Below are positions 12,475 to 44,578 of a stretch of 54,681 bases of DNA, piece by piece. A program made the position numbers and the translations under genes. Numbering within the stretch: position 1 is the stretch's first letter; every line of letters starts with the position of its first letter. Source of the stretch: Desulfovibrio sp. TomC (GTDB lineage Bacteria > Desulfobacterota > Desulfovibrionia > Desulfovibrionales > Desulfovibrionaceae); NCBI RefSeq assembly GCF_000801335.2, contig NZ_JSEH01000030.1, positions 1-54,681 on the forward strand. Direction: 5' to 3'. The notes below the pieces were generated by a model. That model ran no database searches and was not told the origin of the DNA. It saw only the letters and a program-made list of their open reading frames with translations.

Positions 12475-12492
12475 GGGTGCTCCTTGGCGCTT

Positions 12493-12984: not shown

Positions 12985-13031
12985 TTCCTCGATCCCCTGG
13001 CAATATGGCCGCCTGCAGGAGGTGGCGGCAG

Positions 13032-13568: not shown

Positions 13569-13589
13569 CCACAGAGAAAGGAGGAAGAG

Positions 13590-13700: not shown

Positions 13701-13874
13701 CCTGGATCTACAGTCGCAACGGGCGGTTGCCGGGGATCAAGGTTGCCCCGATGTGCGAGGCGATGGTTCCCACGGTCCCCTGGCAAGAAAAGCGCGTTCT
13801 TCGCTGGCTGGGAAACGCCAGCCTGTTGGCAGGACTCTGGCGGGCGGAGAAACCCCGGGCGCAAAGGGAAAAGA

Positions 13875-14657: not shown

Positions 14658-14677
14658 GGCTCCCTCGTGCGCGCCGA

Positions 14678-15703: not shown

Positions 15704-15790
15704 GCCCACACTCGCGTTGGCGTTCGAAACCCAGGATAATGGCCCACTTCCCGACAATTGGGCCATCGTAGATGGCTGCGACGAAAAAGT

Positions 15791-16771: not shown

Positions 16772-17112
16772 ATCCGGCCCAGGGTGGCGTCGACGACAAC
16801 GCTGCTCCAATCTCCGGTCACGGCCACATGGACCGGGGGCAGGACGACGCGCTCCCCCGCAAGGGGGCCTGTCGGACAGGCATGGTCCATGATCATACTC
16901 CCTCTCTCGGCAACGGCTTTAAAACTGCTGTCCATCTTACGAGGCAAGGCCTCTGCCGTCAAACCGGACCGGACAGGGGGCCGAGCAGAGGGGAAAGGCC
17001 TCTGGGCGGGAAGACCCGGAAGGACTTTATCATAAATTGATATTAGGCTATAGAGTGGTTTTCGGCGGTGGAAGTTGCCGCCCGCCCCCTGCAACCCGCC
17101 CATGGAGCGGCC
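16772..17112 (+). promoter_or_regulatory. Divergent intergenic region with a candidate promoter
   Basis: This 341-base gap separates the leftward GAF gene from a rightward unknown gene. TATAGA at 17049-17054 with TTTATC at 17026-17031 (17-base spacer) is a plausible sigma70-like promoter for the rightward gene, ending about 59 bases before its start. No RNA gene or convincing small coding frame is seen. Confidence 0.35.
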
Positions 17113-18870
17113 ATGACGTTTGACTGGACGACCGCCTTTTCCCAGGTTCCCGAGACTGCATTCCTTCAGGGCGAACACCGCCCCCGGGAAGGCGAGATTC
17201 TGCGCGTCCAGACCCTGCCCGATCTGCGCCGTTTTCTCGACTGGGTCCATATCAAGCAATGCCTGCTCAAACCCTATTTTGAACATGCCAACTATCCGGT
17301 CGTGGATTTCCGCGAACTGTTGCCGTCTTTTGAAGCCGATGCATACGAATACAAGGAACTCCCTGGATTTTCCATGGTGGCCGTGGCCAGGCCGCTGAAA
17401 TACTTCCAGGAAATTTTCCAGTACGACATCCTGCACTGCCTGCTCGACTACACCGACGAGACCTACCGCGATCAGTGCCCGCTTGAGAGTTCCATTTTCG
17501 GCCAAAACATGCGCACGTTTTGCGCCCGCCTGGCCAAATCCAGCCAGGACGCCTTCAGGCACGAATTTTCCGAGACCGACGTGACGAGTCTGGAAAACTA
17601 CGCCGCGCTCCTGCCCACCATCCTCCAGATGGACCGGGCCCATGTCCTGTCCATGGACAGCCAGAGCGACTTCTATCTCTCCGGCGTCTACTGCTCGTTC
17701 CCGTCCTACCTCGACACCGAACTCAAGCGGTTTGGCCTGAATATCAAGAAATTCGTGGTGGGCGACGACCGCCGCTACGAGCGCCACCGGAGTTTTGTCT
17801 ATCAGTTTCTGATGGAGCTCTACGGCTTCCCCATCGTGTCCGAACGGCGCACCTCCTCGGCCCTTTTCGCACGGCGGCTTTTCCGCATGGGCGAGAAGTT
17901 CATGGTGCGGGTGCTCGGCCAGACCGATCGCACCATCACCACACTGTATTCCCATCCCGAGGCACGCTTTTATCCCCGGGTCGAGAAAATCGCCCTGGTC
18001 GCCGTGGACAAGACCCAGACCGAAGCGGTCAAGGCCCTGCACGAAGCCGGCTTTTTCATTGACCCCGACCGCCGGGTGGCCATCACCCGGGTGGTCTACC
18101 GCCAGCACAAGTTCGACCCCAACAACGTGCGCCAGGACCGGGCCTTGTCCGTGGCCTCCCAGGAAGTCATCCACCCCGTGACCGGCAAAAGCTATTACAG
18201 GCTCAATCTGGTCAAGGACACCTACAGCCTCTTCTTGCGCTTAAACGACATCGTGCGCGGCGAATATTCCGGCCGCATCGTCTACAAACGCAACGAGATC
18301 GTGGAAAATACCGACACCCACGAGAAAAAGCTCAAATTTCTCTACGCCTGGCTGTCCAAGCATCAACGCCGCATCATCGGCTATTCCGACGAGTTCTATT
18401 CCAATGTCGTCAAGGTGCTCGACAACTACCTGCTTTCCGCAGACCACTACGACGACTTCAGCAATATGCGCGACATCTATCAGGAAGTCTGGAGTAAATA
18501 CAGTTACATCCAGCAGGCCCGCAAGGTGAAGCTGCTCGAAGACCTCCAGGATCGCAACTACAAGGGCGAACGGCTGTCCTACCTCCGGATGCTGACGCTT
18601 TTTACCGAGATATTAAACGACCTCAAATTCGAGATCGTCAACTACTTTGACGCCCTGGTGGAACGCGTCCTGTCCCTTGGCGACATGATTTTAAACGACA
18701 GCTATCTGCTTCGCCATTACATCCGCAAAAAGGATCTGGATCTGTCCCCCTACGGTTTGTCCGTGAAAAAAACCTACAGCCGGCTCGTGGCCCTGCTCGA
18801 CGAGTTCCGGTCCATCCGCAAGGCTAAAAAGGAACAGGGCATCGTCCTGCCGCTGGTGGCGCAAAGCTGA
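17113..18870 (+). CDS. Conserved-looking unknown protein, 585 aa
   Basis: A 585-residue soluble protein I do not recognise. It is rich in Tyr, Phe, Arg and Asp, has no signal peptide or membrane segment, and reads as a well-formed core gene (codon use like its neighbours, no frame breaks). Features include a Cys at residue 58 in HIKQCLL, a DDRRYERHR basic patch (about residue 215) and a C-terminal helical region rich in Asp/Tyr/Lys (about 430-570). ATG 17113 was chosen because GGAG precedes it at usable spacing; an earlier in-frame start at 17068 is possible. It is followed 71 bases later by gcvT on the same strand, but no functional link is evident. Confidence 0.8.
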   Translation: MTFDWTTAFSQVPETAFLQGEHRPREGEILRVQTLPDLRRFLDWVHIKQCLLKPYFEHANYPVVDFRELLPSFEADAYEYKELPGFSMVAVARPLKYFQEIFQYDILHCLLDYTDETYRDQCPLESSIFGQNMRTFCARLAKSSQDAFRHEFSETDVTSLENYAALLPTILQMDRAHVLSMDSQSDFYLSGVYCSFPSYLDTELKRFGLNIKKFVVGDDRRYERHRSFVYQFLMELYGFPIVSERRTSSALFARRLFRMGEKFMVRVLGQTDRTITTLYSHPEARFYPRVEKIALVAVDKTQTEAVKALHEAGFFIDPDRRVAITRVVYRQHKFDPNNVRQDRALSVASQEVIHPVTGKSYYRLNLVKDTYSLFLRLNDIVRGEYSGRIVYKRNEIVENTDTHEKKLKFLYAWLSKHQRRIIGYSDEFYSNVVKVLDNYLLSADHYDDFSNMRDIYQEVWSKYSYIQQARKVKLLEDLQDRNYKGERLSYLRMLTLFTEILNDLKFEIVNYFDALVERVLSLGDMILNDSYLLRHYIRKKDLDLSPYGLSVKKTYSRLVALLDEFRSIRKAKKEQGIVLPLVAQS

Positions 18871-18941
18871 CCTGACGGCCGGGTGTATCGCCGCCGTACC
18901 ACCCCTGACATCGGAAGCCCGCTTCCGACTACCCGGAGCAT

Positions 18942-20033
18942 GTGACCGTGGAAAACCCCACCCCCACTCCCCTCACCGATTGGAACCGCAGCCACGGAGC
19001 CAAAATGGTTCCCTTCGCCGGCTTTGACATGCCGGTGCAATATGTCTCCATCCTGGCCGAGCACGAACAGACCCGCGCCAAGGCCGCCATTTTCGACATC
19101 TGCCACATGGGCGAATTCCTTCTGGCCGGAGCCGGCGCAGCCGAGGCGCTGGGCAAGGCGGTGACCCATGATCTGGCCACCCTGGCCCCGGGGAAATGCC
19201 GCTACGGCTTCCTGTTAAACGAAGCCGGCGGGGTCATCGACGATCTCATCATCTATTGCCTGGGCGTGGATGAGTACATGCTGGTGGTCAACGGCTCGCG
19301 CATCGCCATTGATTTTGAGACGATCAAAAGCCGCCTGCCGGCCGGATCGGATTTCAAGGACATCTCGCCCCAGACCGCGAAGATCGACCTGCAGGGCCCT
19401 CTCGCCTTTGAGGTGCTGCGCGACCGGGTGCCGGGCGACTTTGCCGGACTCAAATATTTCAACTTCATCTGGACGGAGTTCCAGGGGGCAAAGCTCATGG
19501 TCAGCCGCACCGGCTATACCGGCGAGCTTGGCTATGAACTGTTCCTGCCGGCCGAGCAGGCCGTGGCCCTGTGGGAGGCGTTGGCCGCCGATCCGCGCGT
19601 GGCCCCGGCTGGCCTTGGCGCGCGCGACACCATCCGCCTGGAGATGGGCTATCCCCTCTATGGCCAGGACCTCGACGAGGAGCACACCCCGGCCGAGGCC
19701 GGCTACGGTTGGCTGCTCACCTCACCGGCCGAGTACGTCGGCAAGGGCAAGGCGGCCGGCCTTCGCCAGAAGCTGATCGGCCTGGAGATTCCCGGCCGGC
19801 GCAGCGCCCGGCATGGCGACGTGGTCCTGGACAAGGCCGGCAAGACCGTCGGCGTGGTGACCAGCGCATCCTTCGCCCCGAGCCTGGGCCATGCCGTGGC
19901 CCTGGCCTATGTGGACGCCGCCGCAGCCGAGGCCAAGGACTTTGTGGTCAAGGCCGCCCGCACCGAACTGCCGGCCAGCAAGCGCCCCCTGCCCTTTTAC
20001 AAAAACGGCACGGCCAGAAAGGCTGTGGTCTAA
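18942..20033 (+). CDS. gcvT: Glycine cleavage system T protein (aminomethyltransferase)
   Basis: Transfers the methylene group from aminomethyl-lipoyl H protein to tetrahydrofolate and releases ammonia. It is 363 residues, normal length. Family landmarks are HMGEFLLAGAGA near residue 60, the folate-site region TGYTGELGYELFLP, ARDTIRLEMGYPLYGQDL and the C-terminal barrel domain with SASFAPSLGHAVALAYVD. The start is GTG 18942 with CCGGAG before it; GTG 18948 is an alternative. gcvH and gcvP are not adjacent, unlike most gcv operons. Confidence 0.92.
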   Translation: MTVENPTPTPLTDWNRSHGAKMVPFAGFDMPVQYVSILAEHEQTRAKAAIFDICHMGEFLLAGAGAAEALGKAVTHDLATLAPGKCRYGFLLNEAGGVIDDLIIYCLGVDEYMLVVNGSRIAIDFETIKSRLPAGSDFKDISPQTAKIDLQGPLAFEVLRDRVPGDFAGLKYFNFIWTEFQGAKLMVSRTGYTGELGYELFLPAEQAVALWEALAADPRVAPAGLGARDTIRLEMGYPLYGQDLDEEHTPAEAGYGWLLTSPAEYVGKGKAAGLRQKLIGLEIPGRRSARHGDVVLDKAGKTVGVVTSASFAPSLGHAVALAYVDAAAAEAKDFVVKAARTELPASKRPLPFYKNGTARKAVV

Positions 20034-33010: not shown

Positions 33011-34131
33011 CGCAGACGTTCGAGGATGAGGTTGCTGACCAGAAAGCCGTTCTTGGTCAACCGCAGATGGCCGGCGCTGATGCGAATCAGCTCGTTTTGC
33101 CGCAAAGCGGTAATGAGCCCTTCGTTTTCCTTGAGAAAATCAATTCCCGTCAACCGCCGGTAGAGCGACAGACGAAGCCCCTTGGCCGTTCGCAGGGCGA
33201 GCATGACAAATTCGCGCACCCGTTCCTCCCGGGTCAGCGCCACGCCCCCGATCCCGCACCGCCCGGTCTTGGCCAAGGCAGCCCACTCGCGCACGTCGCG
33301 GGGATTTTCATGGCGCACGCCGCCAAGCGTCGACACCGCTCCCGGTCCAAGCCCGAGATAATCCCGGCCTTCCCAATAGCCGCTGTTGTGGCGGCTTTGA
33401 AAGCCCATGCGGGCAAAGCTTGAAATCTCGTATTGCAGGTAGCCCTGCTCCTCCAGATATTCGGCCCCGTGCACGTACATGCGGCCCTGCTCGATTTCCA
33501 GAGGCAATTCCAGCTCCCCGGCCGCGGCCAGGGCGGCCAGCGGCGTCTCCGGTTCGACGGTCAGGCCGTAGCAGGACAGGTGTTCCGGACGCAGGCGGAC
33601 TGCGGTCTTGAGATTTTCCAGCCAGGTGGCTTCGCGCTGACCGGGCAGGCCCCAGATAAAATCCAGGCTGATATTGGCAAAGCCTGCCTGCCGGGCGGCG
33701 CCAAACGCGGCCATGGCGGCCTTGGCCTTGTGGGGACGGCCGAGAAACTGCAGGTCGGCGTCGGCAAAGCTTTGCACCCCAAGACTCAGGCGATTGACCC
33801 CGTAGCCGATCAGGGCGCGCAGATAGTCCACATCCAGGGCCGAATCGGGATTGGCCTCAAAAGTCCACTCCACGGCCGGATGGATATCGAAGTGCTTGAC
33901 GAGTTCCGGGATAATGCGGCTTAACGCCCAGGGCGGCAGCAGGCTTGGGGTGCCGCCGCCGAAATAGATGGTCTCGACCTTGGGGCGGCCGAGTTTCTTG
34001 CCGAAAGCGCGGATTTCCAGCGGCAGGGACGTGGCATAGACCTCCACCTCAGCCATGTCGAGGGGCCTGGAGACGAAAGCGCAATACCGGCATTTGCTCC
34101 GGCAAAAGGGCACGTGAATATAGAGCAGCAT
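33004..34131 (-). CDS. hemW: Radical SAM heme chaperone HemW
   Basis: A 375-residue HemW, formerly annotated as oxygen-independent coproporphyrinogen oxidase-like. The N-terminus YIHVPFCRSKCRYCAF holds the CxxxCxxC radical-SAM cluster motif. IYFGGGTPSLLPP and EANPDSALD match the SAM-binding region. The C-terminal winged-helix region ends the protein. HemW lacks the extra HemN residues and inserts heme into respiratory proteins. The start at ATG 34131 matches the family; the upstream in-frame start is a TTG and unlikely. Cytochrome-rich metabolism, such as Qrc in this window, would need heme trafficking. Confidence 0.9.
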   Translation of the reverse strand: MLLYIHVPFCRSKCRYCAFVSRPLDMAEVEVYATSLPLEIRAFGKKLGRPKVETIYFGGGTPSLLPPWALSRIIPELVKHFDIHPAVEWTFEANPDSALDVDYLRALIGYGVNRLSLGVQSFADADLQFLGRPHKAKAAMAAFGAARQAGFANISLDFIWGLPGQREATWLENLKTAVRLRPEHLSCYGLTVEPETPLAALAAAGELELPLEIEQGRMYVHGAEYLEEQGYLQYEISSFARMGFQSRHNSGYWEGRDYLGLGPGAVSTLGGVRHENPRDVREWAALAKTGRCGIGGVALTREERVREFVMLALRTAKGLRLSLYRRLTGIDFLKENEGLITALRQNELIRISAGHLRLTKNGFLVSNLILERLRY

Positions 34132-34244
34132 GGGATGACCGGACGTTGGGATCGTTGCCGGCCTGATGGCCGACAACGGTCTTTAGGCCCAAACGCCGCC
34201 CCCGGCAAGCCCGGGGCCACGGCGCTCGGGCGTACTACCCCGCC

Positions 34245-35696
34245 TCAGGCCAGCCGGGAGAAGAGAAAAAAGAGTCCGGCCCCAAGCAGCATGGCCGCCG
34301 GCAGCGTGAACACCCAGGCCATGGCAATGGAGCGCAGGGTGCGCATCTGGAGTCCGCTTTTGTGGGCCGCCATGGTGCCGGCCACCCCGGAGGCCAGGAC
34401 ATGGGTGGTGGACACCGGCAGCCCCAGGCCGTCGGCCAGACCGATGGTGACCATGGCCACAATCTGGGCCGAGGCCCCCTGGGCGTAGCTCAGCCGGGTT
34501 TTGCCGATTTTTTCGCCAATGGTCACCACAATGCGCTTCCAGCCGACCATGGTGCCCAGGCCAAGGGCCAGGGACACAGCCAGAATCACCCAGTCCGGGG
34601 CGTATTCCGTGGGCCGGCGCAGGGTTTTGCGCAATTCACCGATATTGGGCTGCTCGGTTTTGTTGCCCGGCAGCCCTTCCATGATGCGGGCCGCATCGTC
34701 GAGGCACAGGATGTCGGTGCGCAGCGTCCAGCGTTCGGCCGGGGGTACGGCCGCAATGGAATCGTACAGAGCCAGACGCTGCTGGATGGCTTCCGAGGCG
34801 GCCACGGCCCGACGGACATCACAGGAGACGGCCGAGGACTTCTGGGGCAAGGCAACGATCTGGCCTGTCTGGTAGGCCGTGGCGATCTCCAGGCGATGAG
34901 CGTCGAAATAATCGGTGAACGTGGCCGCAGCGCGGCGCACCGCAGCCATTTCCTCGGCCGGGGTGTCCACATCAAGGGCATAGATACCGGGCAGAATGCC
35001 GATCAAAATGAGCATGATCAGACCAACGCCCTTCTGCCCGTCGTTGGAACCATGGGCCAGACTCACGCCCAGGCCGGACAGGATGAGGGCCAGACGCATG
35101 CCAAAAGGCGGCGGCGCGTCGCCCACCGGCGGCTGGTGCAGGGCCGGATTTTTGAGCAGCCGGTGCAGGAGAAGCAGCAGCCCGCCGGCCAGGAGGAAGC
35201 CGATAACCGGGGAAATAAGCAGGGACAGGCCGACCTCGACGGCCATGTGCCAGTTGACGCCGGACCCGGCCGGCAATCCCTCGCGCACGGCATTGGCCAC
35301 CCCGACGCCCAGGATGGAGCCGATGAGCGTATGGGAGCTTGAGGCCGGCAGTCCCAGGTACCAGGTGCCAAAATTCCACAGGATGGCCGAAACGAGCAGG
35401 GAGAAGACCATGGCCAGACCGAGGTTGGTGTTGACCGAAACAAGCAGATCAACCGGAAGGAGATGGACGATGGCATAGGCCACGGCGATGCCGCCAAGCG
35501 ACACGCCGAAGAAATTGCAGATACCGGAGAGAACCACGGCCGTGCGGGCGCTTAAGGATTTTGTGTAAATAACGGTGGCCACGGCATTGGCCGTATCGTG
35601 AAAGCCATTGACGAATTCAAAGGTCAGGGCGATTCCCAGGGACACGGCCAACAGCAGCAGCGTATGACCATCAATACTCGAGAATAGTTGAATCAT
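34245..35696 (-). CDS. pit: Pit-family low-affinity phosphate transporter
   Basis: A 483-residue polytopic inner-membrane phosphate:proton (metal-phosphate) symporter. The two family repeats are clear: VNGFHDTANAVATVIYTKS near the N-terminus and SLAHGSNDGQKGVGLIML in the middle, plus TTHVLASGVAGTM at the C-terminus. About ten membrane helices are expected, with a central hydrophilic loop (about residues 225-365). ATG 35696 follows directly on the family start; no strong ribosome binding site is visible. A Nif11-like gene lies upstream on the same strand, and a PhoU-containing operon is divergent, which indicates a phosphate-related neighbourhood. Confidence 0.93.
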   Translation of the reverse strand: MIQLFSSIDGHTLLLLAVSLGIALTFEFVNGFHDTANAVATVIYTKSLSARTAVVLSGICNFFGVSLGGIAVAYAIVHLLPVDLLVSVNTNLGLAMVFSLLVSAILWNFGTWYLGLPASSSHTLIGSILGVGVANAVREGLPAGSGVNWHMAVEVGLSLLISPVIGFLLAGGLLLLLHRLLKNPALHQPPVGDAPPPFGMRLALILSGLGVSLAHGSNDGQKGVGLIMLILIGILPGIYALDVDTPAEEMAAVRRAAATFTDYFDAHRLEIATAYQTGQIVALPQKSSAVSCDVRRAVAASEAIQQRLALYDSIAAVPPAERWTLRTDILCLDDAARIMEGLPGNKTEQPNIGELRKTLRRPTEYAPDWVILAVSLALGLGTMVGWKRIVVTIGEKIGKTRLSYAQGASAQIVAMVTIGLADGLGLPVSTTHVLASGVAGTMAAHKSGLQMRTLRSIAMAWVFTLPAAMLLGAGLFFLFSRLA

Positions 35697-35768
35697 GCTA
35701 TACCAGCGCCCCTTCTCCCAAAAAAATCGTAACCATTGTCGCAATACTGTCATAGAGAAACATTCAAT

Positions 35769-35951
35769 TTAGGTCCCTTCAACCAAATGCACCAAAGCCT
35801 GCCGGGCCTTGAGTTCCTCAACGGTGAACACAAACCCCTGGGCCGCGGCATGGGCCACCAGTTCCTTGACCGGCATTCCGCCGACCAAGAGCAGCCGGTC
35901 TTTGTCGGCCTGCAACCACAAAAGAAAACGATCAATCGCTTCCTGGCTCAT
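35769..35951 (-). CDS. Nif11-like small protein
   Basis: A 60-residue protein matching the Nif11 pattern: helix with FLLWLQADKDRLL, then PVKELVAHAAAQGFVFTVEEL. In other bacteria this domain forms the leader of modified peptides or occurs alone in nitrogen-fixation loci. Here the domain fills the whole protein, with no GG-type cleavage site or core peptide after it. ATG 35951 has GGAGG at ideal spacing. It lies 72 bases upstream of the Pit transporter on the same strand. No peptide-modifying enzyme is nearby, so a regulatory or adaptor role is as likely as a leader role. Confidence 0.72.
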   Translation of the reverse strand: MSQEAIDRFLLWLQADKDRLLLVGGMPVKELVAHAAAQGFVFTVEELKARQALVHLVEGT

Positions 35952-36067
35952 AGGATCCTCCATAGAGCGACCCTAGCCCATCGCCCTGGCCCGGTACAGG
36001 GTTCGCCTGTGAAATTTGCGTCATTGCCGTATGACGAACCGGTGATGCCGGCCACGCCTGGACGAGT

Positions 36068-36085
36068 GTGTCAAACGGTGTCAAA
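36068..36085 (+). promoter_or_regulatory. Pho-box-like direct repeat
   Basis: GTGTCAAAC-G and GTGTCAAA repeat with a 10-base period (TGTCAAA at 36069-36075 and 36079-36085). PhoB sites are 7-base direct repeats with an 11-base period, so this is only similar. It lies about 100 bases before the amphi-Trp gene and about 115 bases before the divergent Nif11-pit genes, so it could serve either. Confidence 0.35.
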
Positions 36086-36183
36086 AATAACAGCCCAAGC
36101 TTCACCTTTTCTTCATATTCGGATGCTAGAGGCTTTGTCGCTGTCCCGGATAGTGCGCCCGGGCCAGCCCAAGGAGGATGCGC

Positions 36184-36459
36184 GTGAACAAGCTTTTCAA
36201 ATATGACGGCTTACAACAGCCCGATACCATCGCCGCCTATCTCGAGGCGGTGCGCGACGGTTTTGCCTCCGGCGAGATCACCCTGACCCAGGGCGAGGAC
36301 GTGCTGACCCTGGCTCCCAAGGGGCTGGTGGCCGTCACCGTCGAGGGCAAACTCAAGGGCGAGGACCGCAAGCTCAAGCTGACCTTTCGCTGGAAGGAAC
36401 GCGAGCAGGAATGTAATGCCCCGCTCCTCATCACGGCCCGGGACGACGGCGATGCATGA
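36184..36459 (+). CDS. Amphi-Trp domain protein (GAK system)
   Basis: A 91-residue protein whose C-terminal half has the amphi-Trp pattern of alternating charged and hydrophobic beta strands around a Trp (KLKLTFRWKEREQE). AAGGAGG ends at 36177, so the ATG at 36178 would have no spacing; GTG 36184 is the likely true start. The function is unknown; the family recurs with an ATP-grasp enzyme and HprK-like kinase in what has been called the GAK grouping. It is the first gene of that cluster here, and its stop overlaps the next start. Confidence 0.8.
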   Translation: MNKLFKYDGLQQPDTIAAYLEAVRDGFASGEITLTQGEDVLTLAPKGLVAVTVEGKLKGEDRKLKLTFRWKEREQECNAPLLITARDDGDA

Positions 36460-38083
36460 GATCGAGCGCAATTTCAAATTCCTGCTTGTCGAGATCGAAC
36501 GTCAGATCGAAGGCACGATTGCCGTTTTGGAACACCGTGACGAGAAGGCCATCGCCAAGATCGAGGCCCGCGACGACTATATCGACAACCTGAAAAGCGT
36601 CATCGAAAACGCCTGCTTTGCCACGCTGCACGGCGAGACCCGGCCAAGCGCGCCGGAAGTCGCCCGCATCCGGGCCTTTCACATCATCGGCAGCAACCTT
36701 GAGCGGGTGGGCGACCATGCCGTCAACGTGGTGCGCCAGACCCGGCACTACGACGACCCGGAATGCGTCAAACGCTATGCTTACAAGCCGTTTTTCCAGG
36801 AAATCCAGAATGCCCTGGCCTGGATGCCAAAGGCGGTGCTTGAGCGGGACATGGCGACGGCCCTCAAAATCTGCCGCTGCGAGCTGCATCTCGACCGCCT
36901 GTACAAGCAGGAGTTCGACCGCATCCGCGATGAACTGCGTTCGGGATTCGGCACCGGCGATCTGCTGACCACGCTTTTTATCTTCCGCTACCTGGAACGC
37001 ATGGGCGATGCCCTGTTAAATGTCGGCGAGGCCGCCATCTTCGGCATCACCGGCGACAAGTTCAAAATTCGCCAGTTCACGGCCCTAAGCGACATCCTGG
37101 CCGAGTCCGGCCATGAAAACCCGCTGTCCGACCTGGAATTCGAGTCCATCTGGGGGACGCGCTCGGGCTGCCGCATCGGCCGGGTGCTGGAGCGCGGCGG
37201 CGAGGATGACTGCCACAAGGAAGTGATCTTCAAAGACGGCGACAGCGCCAAGCTGCGCCAGGAAGCAGCCAACTTTGCCCGCTGGGAAGCCCTCATGCCC
37301 GGCCTGGCCCCGCGACTGGAGGCCTTTCGGGAGGGCAAAAAGACCAGTTCCATGCTGATCGAACTGCTGCCCGGCCAGACCATCCAGGACCTGGCCCTGT
37401 CAAGCGACCTCGATCTCCTGGGCCGGGCGCTGGCCGCCCAATGCCGCACGGCCAGGACCCTGTGGGAAAAAACCCTGACCGCGACCCCGGTGGCCGCCGG
37501 CTGCGTCAAACAATTGCGGGCCCGCCTGCCCGAAATCCTCACCGTCCATCCCGGCTTCCGTCTCAAGCGCCGGGCCATCGGCTCGTTTGTCCTGCCGTCT
37601 CTGGACGCGCTCCTCGACGCGGCCGAAGCCGTCGAGACCAACCTGGCCGCGCCCTACTCGGTGCTCATCCACGGCGACTACAACACCAACAACATCCTCT
37701 ACGACCAGACCGAAGACCGTATCCACTACATCGACCTGCACCGCTCGACCGATACGGATCTGGTCCAGGATGTGTCGGTCTACATGGTTTCCAACTTCCG
37801 CCTGCCGGTCTTCGACAAGGCCCGACGACGGGTGCTCACCGCCGTTATCCTGGATTTTTACCGCTTTGCCGCGGCTTTTGCCGCAAGCAAAAATGATACG
37901 ACCTTCGATATCCGTCTGGCGCTCGGCCTTGGGCGGTCGCTTATCACCTCAACGCGCTTTGAACTCAGTGAGCGCTTTTCCAAACTGATGTTTCATCGCG
38001 GCATCTTTCTGCTCGAACGCGTGATCGGCCATACCGGCGATCCGGCGACGTTCCGGCTGCCGCTTGCCGCCCTGTGCTACTAG
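36452..38083 (+). CDS. PhoU-domain/aminoglycoside-phosphotransferase-like fusion
   Basis: A 543-residue two-part protein. Residues 1-210 are PhoU-like with both three-helix repeats carrying the metal motif: ERVGDHAVN (84-92) and ERMGDALLN (182-190). Residues 230-543 are an APH/choline-kinase-like phosphotransferase, with a candidate ATP lysine in CHKEVIFKDG (254-263), Brenner-type catalytic loop HGDYNTNN (407-414) and metal Asp in YIDLHRS (426-432). PhoU normally damps phosphate uptake through PhoR/Pst; fused to a kinase it may sense phosphate and phosphorylate a small molecule or protein. ATG 36452 overlaps the amphi-Trp stop by 8 bases. The substrate is unknown. Confidence 0.85.
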   Translation: MHEIERNFKFLLVEIERQIEGTIAVLEHRDEKAIAKIEARDDYIDNLKSVIENACFATLHGETRPSAPEVARIRAFHIIGSNLERVGDHAVNVVRQTRHYDDPECVKRYAYKPFFQEIQNALAWMPKAVLERDMATALKICRCELHLDRLYKQEFDRIRDELRSGFGTGDLLTTLFIFRYLERMGDALLNVGEAAIFGITGDKFKIRQFTALSDILAESGHENPLSDLEFESIWGTRSGCRIGRVLERGGEDDCHKEVIFKDGDSAKLRQEAANFARWEALMPGLAPRLEAFREGKKTSSMLIELLPGQTIQDLALSSDLDLLGRALAAQCRTARTLWEKTLTATPVAAGCVKQLRARLPEILTVHPGFRLKRRAIGSFVLPSLDALLDAAEAVETNLAAPYSVLIHGDYNTNNILYDQTEDRIHYIDLHRSTDTDLVQDVSVYMVSNFRLPVFDKARRRVLTAVILDFYRFAAAFAASKNDTTFDIRLALGLGRSLITSTRFELSERFSKLMFHRGIFLLERVIGHTGDPATFRLPLAALCY

Positions 38084-38220
38084 TGCAGCGTTCGGGAAAT
38101 GTCGTGACACTTTTCGACGCAGCAATAGGCAGTAATCATTATTTTTATTCGCAAAAAAGCATAACTGTTTTTTTGTGAACGCCACACGAGACATCTGCGC
38201 AACGCACCATGGAGGATAGA
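38084..38220 (+). promoter_or_regulatory. AT-rich gap inside the GAK cluster
   Basis: A 137-base AT-rich gap between the PhoU-kinase and ATP-grasp genes contains A/T-rich tracts at about 38136-38175. It may hold a second promoter so that the ATP-grasp, HprK-like and MgtA genes can be expressed separately. No specific -35/-10 pair stands out and no RNA gene is visible. Confidence 0.3.
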
Positions 38221-39105
38221 ATGAAAAAAATTGGCGTGGTGGGCATCCCCGGCGGCTGGTCCACCTTGCGGCTCTTGGACGCCCTGGAATCCCGCACTGG
38301 CTATCGCCTGTGCATCGACATGGCCGAAGTGCGCCTTGATCTGGAAACGGGCAAAGCCTTTTACCAGGGCACGGACCTGACCAGCCTCGATGGGCTCATC
38401 GTCAAGAAAATAGCCCCGTCCTACACCCCCGACGCCCTGGACCGCATGGAAATCCTGCGGTTCCTGCGTTCCGGCGGGCTGCCGGTCTTTTCCGATCCCG
38501 ACAGCATGTTTCGCCTGATTGACCGGTTAAGCGGCACAGCCGTCCTTCGTCGGGGCGGCATCCCCATGCCGCCGACGGAAATCACCGAGGACATCGACGA
38601 GGCCGCGGCCGTGGTAACCCGTTTCGGCCGGGCCGTGTTCAAGCCACTTTACAGTTCCAAGGCCCGGGGCATGACCGTTATCGAGGACGGCCCGGAAATC
38701 CATGAGGAAATCGCCGACTATCAGGCGGCCGGCAACCGGGTCATGTACATCCAGAAGATGGTCTCCCATGCCGGTGGACATCATGATCTGGGTGTCTCGT
38801 TTCTCGGCGGCGAATATCTGGCAACCTATGCCCGGCAAGGCAGCGGCAACTCCTGGGACACCACCACCCGCACCGGCGGACGCTATGTGCCCCATACCCC
38901 GTCCACGGAAATCATCGCTCTGGCCCACAAGGCCCAAAGCCTCTTTCCGGGCATGGCCTTTACCTGCGTCGACGTCGTGGAAACACCCTCCGGGGCGGCC
39001 ATCTACGAAGTCTCGGCCTTTGGCGGCTTCCGTGGCCTGCTTGATGCCTGCGGCATTGACGCCGCTGCCGTCTATGCCGATTACGTCCTGGAGCATATCC
39101 GATGA
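38221..39105 (+). CDS. GAK-type ATP-grasp enzyme
   Basis: A 294-residue ATP-grasp protein, RimK/glutathione-synthetase-like in outline. Features are FSDPDSMFRLIDRL, the ATP-binding lysine region GRAVFKPLYSSKARGM (about 140-155), YIQKMV for the adenine region, and metal ligands in FTCVDVVE and YEVSAFGGFRG. ATP-grasp enzymes join a carboxylate to an amine through an acyl-phosphate. The ATG at 38221 is fixed by GGAGG six bases upstream. Its stop overlaps the HprK-like start (ATGA). The family is a component of the GAK grouping; the substrate is unknown. Confidence 0.85.
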   Translation: MKKIGVVGIPGGWSTLRLLDALESRTGYRLCIDMAEVRLDLETGKAFYQGTDLTSLDGLIVKKIAPSYTPDALDRMEILRFLRSGGLPVFSDPDSMFRLIDRLSGTAVLRRGGIPMPPTEITEDIDEAAAVVTRFGRAVFKPLYSSKARGMTVIEDGPEIHEEIADYQAAGNRVMYIQKMVSHAGGHHDLGVSFLGGEYLATYARQGSGNSWDTTTRTGGRYVPHTPSTEIIALAHKAQSLFPGMAFTCVDVVETPSGAAIYEVSAFGGFRGLLDACGIDAAAVYADYVLEHIR

Positions 39106-40184
39106 GCACGCCCACCATAGCCGGACTCATGGCCCCGATTCTGGCCGAGGCCCCTCTTGCCCACCGCCTGGAGGTGACCTTTGCCGACGTCACCGTCGTT
39201 CTCTCCACCAATTCCCAGGCGCTGACCAACAAGCTTGGCGACTATTTCCGCGACTTCCTCGGCAGCGGCGGGACCACCACCATCGAGATGACAGCCATTG
39301 AGGCCGGACCGCCGGCCTTCGACCTGCCGCTGGCCGTCCATGCCCGGGAGCCCGGCAAGACCAAGCTCAAGGAAGCCTCCGTCGACCTGCCCGACGGGCG
39401 TGTGGTGCGAAAACTCACCACCGGGCTGGTCTTTCTGTTTGGTCAGGGCAAAAACTACGCCGTCGGCCCGTGCATCGAAAACGACAACCAGATCGTCAAC
39501 TTCATCAACAACCGCTTCATTGAATGGCGTCTCAAGCACGGCGCCCTGCTCTTCCACGCCGCCGGCGTTGCCCAGGCCGGCGCAGGGCTGGTCATCGCCG
39601 GGTTTTCCGGAGCCGGCAAATCCACCCTGGCCCTTGAAATCATGCGCCATGGCACGGATTTCATCAGCAACGACCGGGTCATGGTGTCCCGGGAGGGGAA
39701 CTCCCTGACCATGGCCGGGGTGGCCAAGATGCCCCGGGTCAACCCCGGCACGGTGCTCAACAACCCGGCGCTGGCCTCGGTCATGAACGCCGAAGACCGC
39801 GCCCGCTTTGCCGCCCTGCCCCAGTCCGAATTGTGGGATCTCGAACACAAGTACGACGCCTTCATCGATACATGCTTCGGCCCGGGCCGATTCAAACTGG
39901 CCTGCCCCATGGCCGGACTGGTCATCCTGCGCTGGAAGCGCGACGCCTCGCCGCTGACCACCGCCCGCGTTGACTTAAACCAGCGCCGCGATCTGATGCC
40001 GGCCTTCATGAAGGACGTGGGGCTTTTTTACGAATTCGAAGACCCGTCCGAGCCGTCCATGGCCAGCCAGAAGGCCTACCTCGAGCTGCTTGGCGATCTG
40101 CCGGTCTTGGAAATCGACGGCGGCGTGGATTTCCCTAAGGCGGCCCGGGAATGTCTCACCTTTCTGGAATCTGTGCGCCGCTAA
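39102..40184 (+). CDS. HprK-related kinase (GAK system)
   Basis: A 360-residue kinase related to HPr kinase/phosphorylase. The P-loop is GFSGAGKS (residues 167-174), preceded by GALLFHAAGVA (a conserved His) and followed by FISNDRVMV (Asp191), the general HprK layout. The N-terminal 130 residues are a family-specific region. HprK phosphorylates a serine of HPr; no HPr gene is adjacent, so the acceptor here is unknown and might be the amphi-Trp protein or the ATP-grasp product. Start ATG overlaps the ATP-grasp stop, so the two are translationally coupled. Confidence 0.85.
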   Translation: MSTPTIAGLMAPILAEAPLAHRLEVTFADVTVVLSTNSQALTNKLGDYFRDFLGSGGTTTIEMTAIEAGPPAFDLPLAVHAREPGKTKLKEASVDLPDGRVVRKLTTGLVFLFGQGKNYAVGPCIENDNQIVNFINNRFIEWRLKHGALLFHAAGVAQAGAGLVIAGFSGAGKSTLALEIMRHGTDFISNDRVMVSREGNSLTMAGVAKMPRVNPGTVLNNPALASVMNAEDRARFAALPQSELWDLEHKYDAFIDTCFGPGRFKLACPMAGLVILRWKRDASPLTTARVDLNQRRDLMPAFMKDVGLFYEFEDPSEPSMASQKAYLELLGDLPVLEIDGGVDFPKAARECLTFLESVRR

Positions 40185-40238
40185 CGGCAGCGGCGACCGG
40201 ATGCTTTGGACCGACAGTCCAACAGTGATGGAGTCTTC

Positions 40239-43016
40239 ATGACTGATCCGACGCAACAGGCCGCCCTTGAGGCGGCCCGGCATCCGACCGTCTCCCCGGA
40301 GGTCGAGGTCCAAAGCCTCGCTCCGGAGGAGGAATTCCTCAAGCACCTCGAACATTTTTCCCAGAAAGCCAACGTCTTCGCCACGCTGGCGGCCAAGAAC
40401 AAGATCGCGCCCTACGAGGCGTTTACCCATCTCCACGCCCTTTGGGCCGAGGTCGAGCGCACCGGAGCCCGTCTGACGGAGCCGGTCCCCATGGGAAAGC
40501 CGGCTGTGGCCGGCCTGACCTCGGCCCAGGCCCGGGAACGCCTGCGCCAGTATGGGCTCAATCAGGCCGGAACGTCCAAACGCATCACCCTGTCCAGCCG
40601 CATTGTCGATGCCGTAAAAAATCCCCTGGTGCTCCTGCTCTTTGTCCTGGGCGGCATCTCCTATGCGACCAATGACGTGCGTTCGGCCGTAGTCATCATC
40701 GGCATGGCCGTGCTCGGCGTGACGCTCAAAGTCATCCAGGAGGCCAAGGCCGACACGGCTGCCGAGCAGCTTAAAAAGATGGTCCACACCACGGCCACCG
40801 TCCTGCGTGACGGCGAGCAGCAGGAAATCCCCATGACCGAGGTGGTCCCTGGCGACATGGTCCTGTTGTCGGCCGGCGACATGGTCCCGGCCGATGTCCA
40901 GCTGGTGCGGGCCAAGGACCTCCACGTCAACCAGGCCATGCTGACCGGCGAGGCTCTGCCGGTGGAAAAAGTCGCCCGCGCCCCTGGCCAACCCCCGATC
41001 GAGGGGGAGACCGGCCTGGGCGATCTGGCCATGTGTTTCATGGGCACCAACGTGGTCTCGGGTTCGGCCACGGCCCTGGTCATGGCCACCGGGACGCGGA
41101 CCTATTTCGGCGGCATCGCGGCCAAGCTCTCGGAAAAGCGGCCTGAGACGGATTTCGACAAGGGCATCAAGAAGTTTACCATGCTCATGCTGCGGTTCAT
41201 GATGGTCATGGTGCCCTTTGTGTTTGTCATAAACGGGGCTACCACCGGCGACTGGATGGGCGCGTTCATGTTCGCCCTGGCCGTGGCCGTGGGGCTGACC
41301 CCGGAAATGTTGCCCATGGTGGTGACGGTGTGCCTGTCCAAGGGCGCGCTGGCCATGGCCAAGCACAAGGTTATCGTCAAACGCTTGGACGCCATCCAGA
41401 ACTTCGGGGCCATCGACATCCTTTGCACCGACAAGACCGGCACCCTCACCCAGGACAAGATCATCCTGGAAAAATACCTCGACGTCACCGGCGAAGAGGA
41501 CAATTCGGTGCTGGAATACGCCTACGTCAACAGCAAGCTGCAAACCGGCCTGCGAAATGCCCTGGACATGGCGGTCATCTCTTCCGGCGACCAGGTCGGA
41601 GCCCACATCGACCCTTCCCGCTACGAGCTGCTGGATGAAATCCCCTTTGACTTCATGCGCCGCCGCCTGAGCGTCATCGTCCGGGACACCCAAACCGGCA
41701 GGGCGATCCTCATCTGCAAGGGCGCAGCCGAAGAAGTCTTCGCCCAATGCCGCGACTGCCTGCACGACGGGGTCATATCCCCGCTCGACGACGTGCATCG
41801 GGAAACCATGCAGGAGCTGGTCCACGAACTCAATGACGACGGCTTCCGGGTGGTGGCCCTGGCCTTTGCGGAGGTTGACGGCTCGCGCCATGACTTTGCC
41901 GTGGCCGACGAGTGCAACCTGACGCTCATGGGCTACCTCGCCTTCCTCGATCCGCCCAAGGACACGGCGGCCGACGCCCTGGCCGCCATGCTGGCCCTGG
42001 GTATCCAGCCCAAGATCCTTACCGGCGACAACGCCGTCATTACCGCCAAAATCTGCCGTGAAGTCCGCTTCGACGCCGGCGACCATCTCATCACCGGCGA
42101 GGCCGTGGCCGCCATGACCGAGGCCGAACTGGCCGAGGCCGTGGAAATCTGCCATGTGTTTGCCAAGCTCGACCCCATGCAGAAGGAGGCCATCGTCAAG
42201 GCGCTGCGGGCGCGCGGCCATGTGGTGGGATTTATGGGCGACGGCATCAACGACGCCCCGGCCCTGCGGGCGGCCGACATCGGCATTTCCGTGGATTCGG
42301 CGGTGGACGTGGCCAAGGAATCGGCCGACATCATCCTGCTGGAAAAGAGTCTGGCCGTCCTTGAGCACGGCGTGGCCGAGGGGCGCAAGATCTTTTTCAA
42401 CATCACCAAGTACATCCGCATGGGCGCCAGCTCGAATTTCGGCAACATGTTCAGCGTGCTTGGGGCCAGCGCCTTCCTGCCCTATCTCCCGATGCTGCCC
42501 ATCCAGATCCTGGTGAACAATCTCATGTACGACTTCTCCCAGACGGCCATCCCCACCGACAACGTGGACGCCGAAATAGCCAAGCAGCCCAAGCGCTGGC
42601 GCATCGACGACATTCGGCGCTACATCCTGTATCTTGGCCCGGTCAGTTCGCTGTTTGACTACGTCACCTTCTTTATCCTGCTCCATGTCTTCGGGGCCTG
42701 GGACAATGCCGCTTTGTTTCAGACCGGCTGGTTCATTGAGTCCTTGCTGTCCCAGACCCTTATTGTCCACGTCATTCGCACGGACAAGATACCCTTCCTG
42801 CAAAGCCGCTCCAGTTTCATGCTCGGCTTTACCACCGTGGCCATCTGCGCTGTGGGCGTGTGGTTGCCGTTTTCCCCCCTGGCCGACTATTTCGGCCTGG
42901 TGGTCCCGCCCGCGAGCTATTGGGGCCTCATTGCCCTGGTCATTTTCTGCTACATGTGTCTGGCCCAGATCGTTAAAACCTGGGTGGTCAGGCGTATCGC
43001 CTCCTGCTCCAGCTAG
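40239..43016 (+). CDS. mgtA: MgtA/MgtB-type P-type ATPase (Mg2+ import)
   Basis: A 925-residue P3B-type ATPase in the inner membrane that uses ATP to import Mg2+. The phosphorylation site DKTGTLT is at 398-404, the actuator loop TGEALP at 236-241, and the hinge MGDGINDAPALR is about residue 670. The M4 motif AVGLTPEMLPM is typical of MgtA/B. About ten membrane helices are expected. ATG 40239 has GGAG before it. It lies 54 bases after the HprK-like gene on the same strand, so it is likely the last gene of this operon; a terminator follows. Mg2+ and phosphate pools are linked through ATP, which may explain the grouping. Confidence 0.93.
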   Translation: MTDPTQQAALEAARHPTVSPEVEVQSLAPEEEFLKHLEHFSQKANVFATLAAKNKIAPYEAFTHLHALWAEVERTGARLTEPVPMGKPAVAGLTSAQARERLRQYGLNQAGTSKRITLSSRIVDAVKNPLVLLLFVLGGISYATNDVRSAVVIIGMAVLGVTLKVIQEAKADTAAEQLKKMVHTTATVLRDGEQQEIPMTEVVPGDMVLLSAGDMVPADVQLVRAKDLHVNQAMLTGEALPVEKVARAPGQPPIEGETGLGDLAMCFMGTNVVSGSATALVMATGTRTYFGGIAAKLSEKRPETDFDKGIKKFTMLMLRFMMVMVPFVFVINGATTGDWMGAFMFALAVAVGLTPEMLPMVVTVCLSKGALAMAKHKVIVKRLDAIQNFGAIDILCTDKTGTLTQDKIILEKYLDVTGEEDNSVLEYAYVNSKLQTGLRNALDMAVISSGDQVGAHIDPSRYELLDEIPFDFMRRRLSVIVRDTQTGRAILICKGAAEEVFAQCRDCLHDGVISPLDDVHRETMQELVHELNDDGFRVVALAFAEVDGSRHDFAVADECNLTLMGYLAFLDPPKDTAADALAAMLALGIQPKILTGDNAVITAKICREVRFDAGDHLITGEAVAAMTEAELAEAVEICHVFAKLDPMQKEAIVKALRARGHVVGFMGDGINDAPALRAADIGISVDSAVDVAKESADIILLEKSLAVLEHGVAEGRKIFFNITKYIRMGASSNFGNMFSVLGASAFLPYLPMLPIQILVNNLMYDFSQTAIPTDNVDAEIAKQPKRWRIDDIRRYILYLGPVSSLFDYVTFFILLHVFGAWDNAALFQTGWFIESLLSQTLIVHVIRTDKIPFLQSRSSFMLGFTTVAICAVGVWLPFSPLADYFGLVVPPASYWGLIALVIFCYMCLAQIVKTWVVRRIASCSS

Positions 43017-43053
43017 CGTGGTCCAAGGGACCTCCTGGCCATTCGGTCACAAC

Positions 43054-43095
43054 ACGCCGGGATCGTCCGTACCAAGGACGCTTCCCGGCGTTTTT
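43054..43095 (+). terminator. Terminator after mgtA
   Basis: A 9-bp perfect outer stem (ACGCCGGGA 43054-43062, TCCCGGCGT 43083-43091) with inner GTCC/GGAC pairing is followed by TTTT (43092-43095) and CGG. It lies 37 bases after the mgtA stop. The following stretch to 43275 shows no gene; it contains a 12-bp palindrome GCAGTGCACTGC at 43225-43236. Confidence 0.8.
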
Positions 43096-43275
43096 CGGTT
43101 GCCGCAACGGTCGTGACCGATGCGCCGGATGACCCACCGCACGACTAGCCACCACGACACCTGCAGACGCGCGCCGCATACCGGTCAGACCATTCGGCCA
43201 AACAAAAACGCGGTCCGACCAAGCGCAGTGCACTGCCAGGCCAGCCTCCGGAGAGTGGCCAACCCTCGGCGATTA

Positions 43276-43311
43276 AAATAAAAAAGCCCGGCTGCTTGCG
43301 CAACCGGGCTT
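43276..43311 (-). terminator. Terminator of the qrc operon
   Basis: An 8-bp stem (AAGCCCGG 43284-43291, CCGGGCTT 43304-43311) is followed on the minus strand by a T-rich tract (TTTTTTATTTT, complement of about 43274-43285). It lies 23 bases after the qrcD stop. Confidence 0.85.
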
Positions 43312-43333
43312 GGTCGTTTCGGGGGAAACGGTC

Positions 43334-44578
43334 CTACTTCTTGTTGAGGCCGACTTCCTGGGGGAAGATCGGCAGGTAGCGGTAGGACAGGCTCATGATG
43401 ATGAAACCGTAGGCGATGACCATGAGCGAAGTGGCCCACTCCGCCCAGTTGGGACTGTAGATCTCCCACTTGGTAAACGGCAGCACCGGTTGGGCCAGAG
43501 CCTGGACGGTGAAGACGTAGCGGTTGATCACCACGCCGGCGCAGGCCAGAATGGCTCCCGAGTACATGAAAAACGGCTTCTTGCGCAGGGGAGTCAGCAG
43601 GAAGATCACCGGCACGAGCAGGCAGATGACCAGTTCGGTGAAGAACAGCCAGCGGCCGTAGACCAGACCGTAGAACATCTGGTCAAAGGTCAGGCCGGCC
43701 CGGGGCAGGATGTCGTTAATCCAGGCCCAGGTGTCGAGGTACTTAAAGACCATGTAGATCAGCAGCATGGTGCCGCCGATTTTGCACATGAGCGACTTGA
43801 TGCGGTAGGTGGTGAGCTTGCGGCCGGTCACTTTTTCCATGAAGCCGCAAATCAGCACCGTCATGCACGGGCCGGTAGAGATGGCCGACAGGACGAACAG
43901 GAAGAACGTCCAGGGCCAGATGAAGAACCCGTCGCGGAAGGCGTACGGGCGGGCGAACATGACGCCGTACATGCCGCCGAGCGATCCCTGGTGGAAAGTC
44001 GACAGGAAGGCGCCGATACCGGCAAACAGCGGCATGACCACATGCATCTGGTGGGCCAGATTGTGCAGGAACGGGATCTTGTTGATCTGCTTCTGCTCAA
44101 GGATCAGCGGCACGTACTCAATGATGAGCACCATCAAGTAGCAGGTGATGCAGAAGATAACTTCTGTCAGCATCGAGTGGACGTTGGGGTGCCAGTACCC
44201 GAACCACGACCGGATGGGCTGACCGACGTCCAGGGACAGGATGAGCATGGCCCCGGAGTAGCAGATAAAGCCCTTGATGACGGTCAGGTTGATGATGTTT
44301 TTCAGTTCGTCAATGCGGATGATGTAGCGCAAAAGCCCGGTAAAAAAGGCTCCGGCGCCCAGCGCAATGACGGCGAGGTCAAAGGTGATCCACAGGCCGA
44401 ACCCGAAGTAGTTGTCCAGACCCGTGACGCCAAGGCCGTAGGTGAAGCACACGAGCATGGCGAAGAAGCCGTAGAGAGCGACGACGCCCAGCACGGCCAA
44501 CCACTTCATGAATTTCCCAAGGGAGCAACGCTCGACTCCTTCGGGATACCAGTTTTTTTCTATTTCACTAAAGCTCAT
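43334..44578 (-). CDS. qrcD: Qrc complex integral membrane subunit QrcD (NrfD-like)
   Basis: A 414-residue NrfD/PsrC-family membrane protein with about ten transmembrane helices. In Qrc it carries the menaquinone site and anchors the periplasmic subunits. It contains conserved Trp/Tyr/Phe-rich helices and HMVV-type polar residues (HQMHVVMPLFAG); no heme-binding motif is expected. ATG 44578 follows the QrcC stop by 14 bases. Last gene of qrcABCD; the terminator at 43276-43311 ends the operon. Qrc moves electrons from periplasmic hydrogenases and formate dehydrogenases, via cytochrome c3, to menaquinone for sulfate reduction. Confidence 0.93.
   Translation of the reverse strand: MSFSEIEKNWYPEGVERCSLGKFMKWLAVLGVVALYGFFAMLVCFTYGLGVTGLDNYFGFGLWITFDLAVIALGAGAFFTGLLRYIIRIDELKNIINLTVIKGFICYSGAMLILSLDVGQPIRSWFGYWHPNVHSMLTEVIFCITCYLMVLIIEYVPLILEQKQINKIPFLHNLAHQMHVVMPLFAGIGAFLSTFHQGSLGGMYGVMFARPYAFRDGFFIWPWTFFLFVLSAISTGPCMTVLICGFMEKVTGRKLTTYRIKSLMCKIGGTMLLIYMVFKYLDTWAWINDILPRAGLTFDQMFYGLVYGRWLFFTELVICLLVPVIFLLTPLRKKPFFMYSGAILACAGVVINRYVFTVQALAQPVLPFTKWEIYSPNWAEWATSLMVIAYGFIIMSLSYRYLPIFPQEVGLNKK

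Follow-up and report, generated by a model that had tools for sequence, protein, structure and literature searches.

Here we describe a five-gene locus (36184..43016, plus strand) in the window—the whole 54,681-nucleotide stretch of DNA that was analysed, contig NZ_JSEH01000030.1 of Desulfovibrio sp. TomC—and the GAK system to which it belongs. This system is widely conserved and functionally unassigned, and the fusion of a PhoU domain with a kinase domain encoded at the locus is one of its core members rather than a local oddity. We read the locus as the copy A core of a conserved system of seven components (an XXXCH protein, C4 with a predicted PHP fold, an amphi-Trp protein, the PhoU-kinase fusion or PHOUK, an ATP-grasp ligase or GRASP, the HprK-related kinase B called HprK_B or HPRK, and a CofD-like protein), which in the Desulfobacterota most likely takes part in the PhoB response to phosphate limitation; taken as a whole, this reading has in our judgement about an even chance of being right. 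The form that we favour is a PhoB-controlled kinase/ligase module that would phosphorylate and amino-acylate a substrate. The five genes of the locus are as follows, with lengths in amino acids (aa).

36184..36459, plus strand: amphi-Trp protein (AMPHI copy A, 91 aa); TIGR04354, 66.8 bits, cut-off 31
36452..38083, plus strand: fusion of a PhoU domain and an APH/EcKL-type kinase domain (PHOUK copy A, 543 aa); PF01895 and PF01636
38221..39105, plus strand: GAK-system ATP-grasp ligase (GRASP), RimK/MptN-like; TIGR04356, 424 bits, cut-off 300
39102..40184, plus strand: HprK-related kinase B (HprK_B/HPRK, copy A); TIGR04355, 549 bits, cut-off 200
40239..43016, plus strand: MgtA-type Mg2+ P-type ATPase (925 aa), a genus-specific neighbour; TIGR01524, 1092 bits, cut-off 610.75

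Gene content and distribution of the GAK loci

The link between the fusion and the GAK families is seen most clearly in their joint presence and absence. A survey with a 26-sequence model (E up to 1e-60) detected the fusion in 132 of 297 sampled genomes of the class, and the TIGR04356 ligase scored over its cut-off in 131; both were present in 130 genomes, the ligase alone in one, the fusion alone in two and neither in 164. The ligase match in the single ligase-only genome begins at the contig's first base, and in one of the two fusion-only genomes an incomplete ligase lies at the edge of a contig. Among the matches listed, the closest named relative is Solidesulfovibrio aerotolerans, with a fusion 89% identical.

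Gene order was compared in 81 neighbourhoods, comprising 80 regions from 71 of the 131 ATP-grasp-positive genomes, chosen for spread, and the window; two-copy genomes give two loci, and genes were called by our own script. The ligase was found in all 81 loci, amphi-Trp and the fusion in 77 each, HprK_B in 72, C4 in 67, XXXCH in 61 and CofD-like in 58. The usual order is (XXXCH)–C4–amphiTrp–PHOUK–GRASP–HPRK–COFD–amphiTrp2, with short or overlapping junctions: amphi-Trp lies directly upstream of 72 of the 77 fusions, the fusion directly upstream of 77 of the 81 ligases, and the ligase directly upstream of 70 of the 72 HPRK genes, the last with a median junction of -4 bp. A preliminary description of this DNA had placed the fusion with the GAK genes as a suggestion; co-occurrence in 130 of 131 genomes and the constant amphi-Trp neighbour make the case stronger than was claimed.

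The arrangement extends well beyond the class. A wider search for the fusion gave 80 listed loci, of which the 22 long matches were analysed, the other 58 being PhoU-only or partial; among the matches listed, the 22 include members of the Desulfobacterales as well as two loci from Phycisphaerae (Planctomycetota), two from Myxococcota and one from Bradymonadales. In the phylum's other families, 14 of 15 loci keep the order PHOUK–GRASP–HPRK (L132 with broken frames), and the contig of the fifteenth begins at GRASP. Both Myxococcota loci and the Bradymonadales locus are without C4, the last consisting, again among the matches listed, of amphi-Trp and the fusion only. Two sister-genus loci (L135, L136) read XXXCH–C4–amphiTrp–PHOUK–HPRK without the ligase, which lies elsewhere in that genus. 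Since the core gene order is kept in distant bacteria, the grouping is more than chance. Eleven of the 22 long matches were left out of the promoter and neighbour counts given below; nine of these are apparent repeats of surveyed contigs, and L139 and L146 are without such proof.

Within the window, the preliminary description had proposed five genes of named families on one strand, three of the four junctions overlapping or within 60 bases, and all of this is borne out: the families are confirmed by profile scores over the cut-offs, and the junctions with the preferred starts are -8, +137, -4 and +54 bp. Likewise, its assignment of amphi-Trp, ATP-grasp and HprK-like genes to the GAK grouping agrees with TIGR04354, TIGR04356 and TIGR04355, all over cut-off here. 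Starts were picked by Shine-Dalgarno spacing and family length (36184, 36452, 38221, 39102 and 40239); the first is a GTG 6 bp past AAGGAGG, with an in-frame ATG at 36178, and open frames reach further upstream for the fusion (from 36416), the ATP-grasp ligase (from 38209) and MgtA (from TTG 40206). The gap between the fusion and the ligase (38084-38220) is AT-rich and, at 137 bp, longer than the 16-79 bp of the remaining 11 members of the genus; an internal promoter or a small insertion may account for it. No match to PADLOC defence systems was found in the five proteins tested, and no RNA leader or riboswitch at gathering score within 34000-44000.

Where the preliminary description had taken this cluster for the system itself, the core genes are indeed here, and the cluster is only a part: XXXCH, C4, CofD and second copies lie at two other loci of the genome. 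The CofD-like TIGR04357 match (529 bits, C2:98332-99516) and the XXXCH TIGR04358 match (99.9 bits, on contig C3) are both outside the set of genes around the window locus. On contig C2 the run is EAL/GGDEF protein–pstB–phoU–HPRK copy B–CofD, and a gene for an Agt-like glycosyltransferase lies close by. On C3 the run XXXCH–C4–amphiTrp–PHOUK copy B lies within ~10 kb of two BPD_transp_1 permeases, a substrate-binding protein and a PhoH-like gene; by eye, the permeases (Pfam BPD_transp_1) and the binding protein are PstC, PstA and PstS. All 12 genus genomes carry two PHOUK copies, and copy A (12 sequences) and copy B (3) form separate clades with support 1.0 (the trees drew on 56 of 95 and 55 of 93 sequences); the window therefore holds copy A, and the system as a whole is divided between loci and duplicated in part.

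Several side observations concern these loci. The CBS/EAL/GGDEF (cyclic-di-GMP) protein at L119:4389-6557 (C2) is encoded directly upstream of pstB-phoU-HPRK2-CofD; RimK-type ligases are cyclic-di-GMP targets in Pseudomonas. Agt-like glycosyltransferases (L119:1318-3795 and L088:4012-6468) show N-terminal PHP-like motifs by eye, with none from Pfam at E 1e-5 in L119. A sister genus, g2, has a GAK copy without CofD between aroK and aroC (L089, L091, L103, L105, L107, L110, L111, L112 and L114), and in several of its genomes CofD is present at a second GAK locus. Here and below, the names PstB, PhoR, PhoB, PhoU, AroK, AroC, Agt-like and OlsF-like were assigned to clusters by eye, and Pfam checks cover part of the copies only.

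Predicted activities of the component proteins

The fusion (frame from 36416) scores over the cut-offs for PF01895 (78.1 bits), PF01636 (35.3) and PF02958 (31.2). Among 26 aligned sequences, its kinase half keeps K261, E271, H407-G408-D409, N414 and D428 invariant, and its PhoU half two E-x-x-x-D pairs, E84/D88 and E182/D186. By sequence, the PF01636/PF02958 matches together with the catalytic HGD..N and D residues place the kinase half in the APH/EcKL kinase superfamily. An aminoglycoside-resistance enzyme was considered and rejected; the APH(3') equivalog scores 28.9 bits against 205, so far below its cut-off that the likeness is one of kinase fold only, not of a resistance gene.

In HprK_B, the P-loop G-x-x-G-x-G-K-S-T and N190-D191-R192 are invariant in the 26 aligned sequences; we take the invariant residues of this protein and of the fusion to be the signatures of working enzymes, going by the residue roles known for their families. 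The next best profile for the ATP-grasp ligase is MptN (121.5 bits), and the ligase is the single TIGR04356 match in the genome. In one genome, a 714-aa open reading frame after GRASP (L067) joins HPRK (residues 4-298) and a CofD-like protein (335-714).

Amphi-Trp proteins are encoded by five genes in the window's genome. Trp72 (numbering from 36178) is invariant in the 26 aligned sequences, and an AlphaFold2 model shows one helix and four strands (predicted local distance difference test, pLDDT, 82). An HPr-like identity was considered and is not supported: the model matches no solved fold at E 0.001 or better, and the sequence matches are weak, to FABP, with a best E of 0.044. The second, downstream amphi-Trp of L146, L157, L158 and L069 has a long Ala/Pro/Lys-rich tail, histone H1-like by eye.

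C4, a protein of ~388 aa, is part of the usual GAK operon. It has no NCBIfam match (two copies searched) and no Pfam match (one copy), and its sequence finds nothing among solved structures beyond one chance-level match. The AlphaFold2 model of a relative's copy (pLDDT 89; predicted template modelling score, pTM, 0.84) shows a PHP fold, with Foldseek matches to RNase AM (9etk, E 8.6e-6), BAD_1165 (3o0f, 2.4e-5) and 2yb1 (2.2e-3). Its invariant residues are, in order, H65-x-H67, H97, E110, H127, H275, D331 and H333—a His/Asp/Glu order that we take to be like the canonical PHP pattern. Because of these model matches and this residue order, C4 is most likely a metal-dependent phosphoesterase.

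Promoters and neighbouring genes

The phosphate connection drawn in the preliminary description stands in the relatives, through boxes and Pho neighbours, and in the context of this genome, and there it is well supported; the window's own promoter, which has no such box, does not add to it. The motif was trained on the heads of 31 Pho genes (pst/phoB/phoU/agt) against 359 controls, with the GAK heads unused; the 11-bp period was chosen beforehand, and other periods were tried for three words only. The best five-letter direct repeat, GTAAC/GTTAC, occurs in 19 of the 31 Pho heads and 26 of the 359 controls, and it then turned up in 22 of the 82 GAK heads (p 3.5e-6). A weight matrix at score 9 picks out 34 of the 82 GAK transcription heads against 36 of the 359 controls (Fisher p 2e-10); the corresponding counts are 41 and 68 at score 7, and 29 and 24 at score 11. 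The published PhoB box of D. vulgaris, in which the half-site (c/t)GT(n)AC is directly repeated, comes from DNA-affinity-purified chip (DAP-chip) and electrophoretic mobility shift assays (EMSA; PMC3333781) and was compared only after the motif had been learnt. Allowing up to one mismatch and a spacer of 5 bp, this repeat is present in 32 of 82 GAK, 21 of 31 Pho and 38 of 359 control heads.

Neighbouring genes point the same way. In a set of 111 loci, to which the window's genome contributes three, PhoU was found in 11, PstB in 12, PhoB and Agt-like in 13 each and at least one of the four in 25; for 17-gene stretches 0.5-1.1 of each would be expected, a rough estimate from which relatedness is not removed. 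Two loci (L084, L087) show a one-direction run PhoB–PhoR–PstB–PhoU–XXXCH–C4–amphiTrp–PHOUK–GRASP, and in L050 an Agt-like gene is followed by PHOUK–GRASP. The 81 survey loci have 11 Agt-like and seven OlsF-like neighbours. Across the class, 104 genomes have both Agt-like and GAK genes, 27 GAK only, 30 Agt-like only and 136 neither, counts that shared ancestry may inflate. In D. alaskensis, the part of PMC5193443 covered reports that mutants in agt (Dde_3613), olsF (Dde_3661), pst and phoR are impaired at low phosphate.

Several points weigh against a PhoB-controlled system. At score 9 no box is found in 48 of the 82 GAK heads, and the genomes counted are related, so the p-values are too small. 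Spacer specificity is imperfect: with one mismatch, spacers of 3, 4, 6 and 7 give 5/7, 6/14, 3/7 and 8/6 GAK/control heads (of 82/359). The E. coli Pho-box consensus was rejected as a motif here, with no enrichment in GAK heads (p 0.29) or in the positive-control Pho heads. The window promoter and seven other heads of the genus score 1.3-6.9, under the threshold of 9, and two copy-B heads 3.3 and 2.1; within this genome the heads of agt (-0.3) and pstB (6.7) are low-scoring as well, so the Pho-box model may not fit this genus. What the window promoter does have is a conserved repeat that could be a divergent Pho box or just promoter sequence:

36100..36116, plus strand: CTTCAC-N5-CTTCAT direct repeat with an 11-bp period, in the promoter region, from the genus alignment

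This CTTCAY-N5-CTTCAT repeat lies in the block TTCAYCTTTTCTTCATA, identical save one C/T in 7 of 7 aligned genus sequences and with its leading C kept in 6 of 7. Two points from outside the promoters also count against: comparison of the amphi-Trp model with the PDB gives nothing at E 0.001 or better, and the D. alaskensis low-phosphate fitness table (Table 1 in the part of PMC5193443 covered) contains no recognisable GAK gene, with its locus tags unmapped and its mutants representing 66% of genes.

Two further repeat candidates were set aside. The Pho-box-like repeat of the preliminary description exists near 36068, as GTGTCAAACGGTGTCAAA, but the Pho-box reading of its GTGTCAAA repeat is rejected; it has a period of 10 bp and is not kept across the aligned genus sequences. 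The CTTCAY repeat was likewise rejected as the motif of a genome-wide regulon, the genome containing just 2 exact matches to it.

Published accounts say little of these genes. A term search of the main text of a D. vulgaris random-barcode transposon sequencing (RB-TnSeq) paper (PMC10102598) found no PhoU, CofD, GAK, amphi or HPr kinase. Searches of open PubMed Central (PMC) full text found nothing under the GAK family names, the amphi-Trp domain and HprK-related kinase included, and no paper on a PhoU domain/aminoglycoside phosphotransferase fusion in Desulfovibrio.

Beside the locus lie two further genes:

34245..35696, minus strand: Pit-type phosphate transporter, divergent neighbour; PF01384, 294 bits; frame open to 35753
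35769..35951, minus strand: 60-aa open reading frame adjoining Pit; cluster c27 in 6 loci, and likewise placed at 4 of 4 further loci of the genus

The phosphate transporter that the preliminary description had noted just upstream is thus confirmed, on the minus strand. Pit is kept in 11 of 12 genus genomes and occurs in one non-genus locus, L084, where a Pit-type transporter (411 aa) and an opposite-strand 224-aa gene stand between GRASP and CofD in HPRK's place. MgtA, which the preliminary description had counted as part of the system, is a companion within the genus: its gene comes straight after HPRK in 11 of the 12 genus genomes (7 and 4 in two sets of loci) and at none of the 73 survey loci from outside the genus, and general membership is rejected accordingly. 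In the MGTA cluster (9 loci), the KdpB-like L038 and the opposite-strand L074 were not counted. The twelfth genus genome (L038) has a Kdp-like potassium operon (12124-19260) in MgtA's place, named by eye from sizes and sequence. MgtA has an N-terminal extension of ~85-100 residues (40239-40530), in which DUF7219 scores below threshold (22.8 against 27 bits). Within the genus, GAK may plausibly be tied to phosphate/Mg transport.

Proposed mechanism, alternatives and known systems

In the mechanism that we favour, low phosphate would lead PhoB to induce the operon. The PhoU half of the fusion may sense the status of phosphate transport, by a PstB/PhoR-type contact or a bound metal, and gate the kinase half; the fusion kinase and HprK_B would phosphorylate, the RimK/MptN-like ATP-grasp enzyme would add an amino acid, and the CofD-like enzyme would transfer a phospho-nucleotide-derived group. 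The PHP-fold C4 could then hydrolyse a phosphoester, closing or resetting the cycle, with the amphi-Trp and XXXCH proteins as carriers, adaptors or targets. Family membership, gene order, co-occurrence, the conserved catalytic residues, the PHP fold on a predicted model and the association with Pho boxes and Pho genes in relatives are shown by the data; induction, the order of the steps, the substrates and the Mg link are inferred, as is the making or modifying of a small molecule that the preliminary description proposed. In the genus Solidesulfovibrio the set is divided over three loci, with copy A linked to Pit and MgtA, plausibly matching Mg2+ to phosphate uptake.

The members of the set could instead form a purely regulatory cascade, in which the PhoU-kinase and HprK_B phosphorylate amphi-Trp/XXXCH, the ATP-grasp enzyme adds glutamate to them, much as RimK glutamylates S6, and C4 takes the phosphates off again; such a cascade would control Pst/Pho activity and make no small molecule. 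HprK relatives phosphorylate a small protein, and the HprK_B profile matches HprK/P structures (E 7.8e-7); two small, apparently non-enzymatic members are common (amphi-Trp in 104 and XXXCH in 74 of 109 loci with at least three components), the 10 XXXCH tails inspected all have Cys-His 5-6 residues from the C-terminus, and HprK_B copy B adjoins phoU/pstB in the window's genome. However, the amphi-Trp model matches no solved fold at E 0.001, and so is not HPr-like by that test; the nearest folds of C4 presumably act on nucleotides/RNA or small phosphoesters, and the CofD-like member points to small-molecule chemistry. We consider the cascade rather unlikely on this balance.

A Mg/phosphate homeostasis unit particular to the genus—Pit importing Mg-phosphate, MgtA importing Mg2+ and the GAK copy balancing the two, with the phosphate link elsewhere a side effect of shared neighbourhoods—strikes us as distinctly improbable. 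Pit and MgtA do flank the GAK copy together in 11 of 12 genus genomes while the outer genes vary, and MgtA is the sole TIGR01524 match over cut-off in the genome, but the gene is missing after HPRK throughout the non-genus survey loci, its gaps to HPRK in the genus are 34-214 bp with no overlap, and the Kdp-like K+ operon of L038 occupies the same place. Ordinary operon conservation, with unrelated genes travelling together by shared ancestry and no joint function, seems very improbable indeed: many of the surveyed genomes are related and aroK/aroC neighbours persist too, chiefly in one genus, yet the order is the same in distant phyla amid different surroundings, presence and absence are joint within the class, and parts that have split off sit at Pho loci.

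Returning to the PhoB-controlled module, we suggest, tentatively and at somewhat less than even chances, that GAK is an undescribed biosynthetic or modification pathway of phosphate limitation with seven core components, to which the PhoU-kinase fusion (a direct coupling of phosphate-transport status with a catalytic kinase) and a PHP-fold family that has no Pfam or NCBIfam model are newly linked, and whose product may be a phosphorylated, amino-acylated molecule or carrier unlike known Pho-regulon products. The GAK families have so far been database names without a function, and the ATP-grasp member scores over its cut-off in 131 of 297 sampled genomes of this class of sulphate reducers. Their association with PhoU, with PhoB boxes and with neighbours of pst/agt/olsF-like type offers phosphate limitation as a testable condition; two core components are added, and the direct joining of PhoU to a kinase bears on how PhoU passes its signal on.

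Each component resembles a known system and departs from it. The N-terminal 200 residues of the fusion match PhoU profiles and PDB 4q25 (E 3.8e-20), but the protein is below the PhoU equivalog cut-off (81.3 against 130.25 bits), is joined to an APH-type kinase and occurs besides a stand-alone PhoU in the window's genome. The GAK ATP-grasp ligase resembles RimK/MptN-type amino-acid ligases (MptN 121.5, RimK family 84.3 bits), far below their cut-offs (350 and 143.4) and with its own family, TIGR04356. The P-loop region of HprK_B matches HPr kinase/phosphorylase structures (E 7.8e-7 to 2qmh), while the protein scores 35.6 bits against a TIGR00679 cut-off of 240, and amphi-Trp, the one small partner modelled, is without an HPr-like fold. 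C4 shares its predicted fold and invariant residue order with the PHP phosphoesterases RNase AM, BAD_1165 and 2yb1, and differs in a long helical stretch (137-250) and in having no NCBIfam match in two copies and no Pfam match in one.

The Pho response of D. alaskensis and D. vulgaris is likened to the present system by the same type of box at the GAK heads of relatives and by loci often beside agt-like, olsF-like, pst and phoB genes, a likeness drawn from cluster labels, in which any orthology to Dde_3613/Dde_3661 is putative; in contrast, the portions of PMC5193443 and PMC3333781 covered contain no recognisable GAK gene, and the D. vulgaris box as given there has a 4-bp spacer where ours has 5 bp. 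The closest comparison is with the NCBIfam GAK grouping itself: TIGR04354, TIGR04355, TIGR04356, TIGR04357 and TIGR04358 are all over cut-off in this genome, three of them in the window. Neither the PhoU-kinase nor C4 is named in the models seen, which give no function either, whereas here both proteins belong to the core, the loci carry a Pho link, and in the window's genus the set is divided over three loci.

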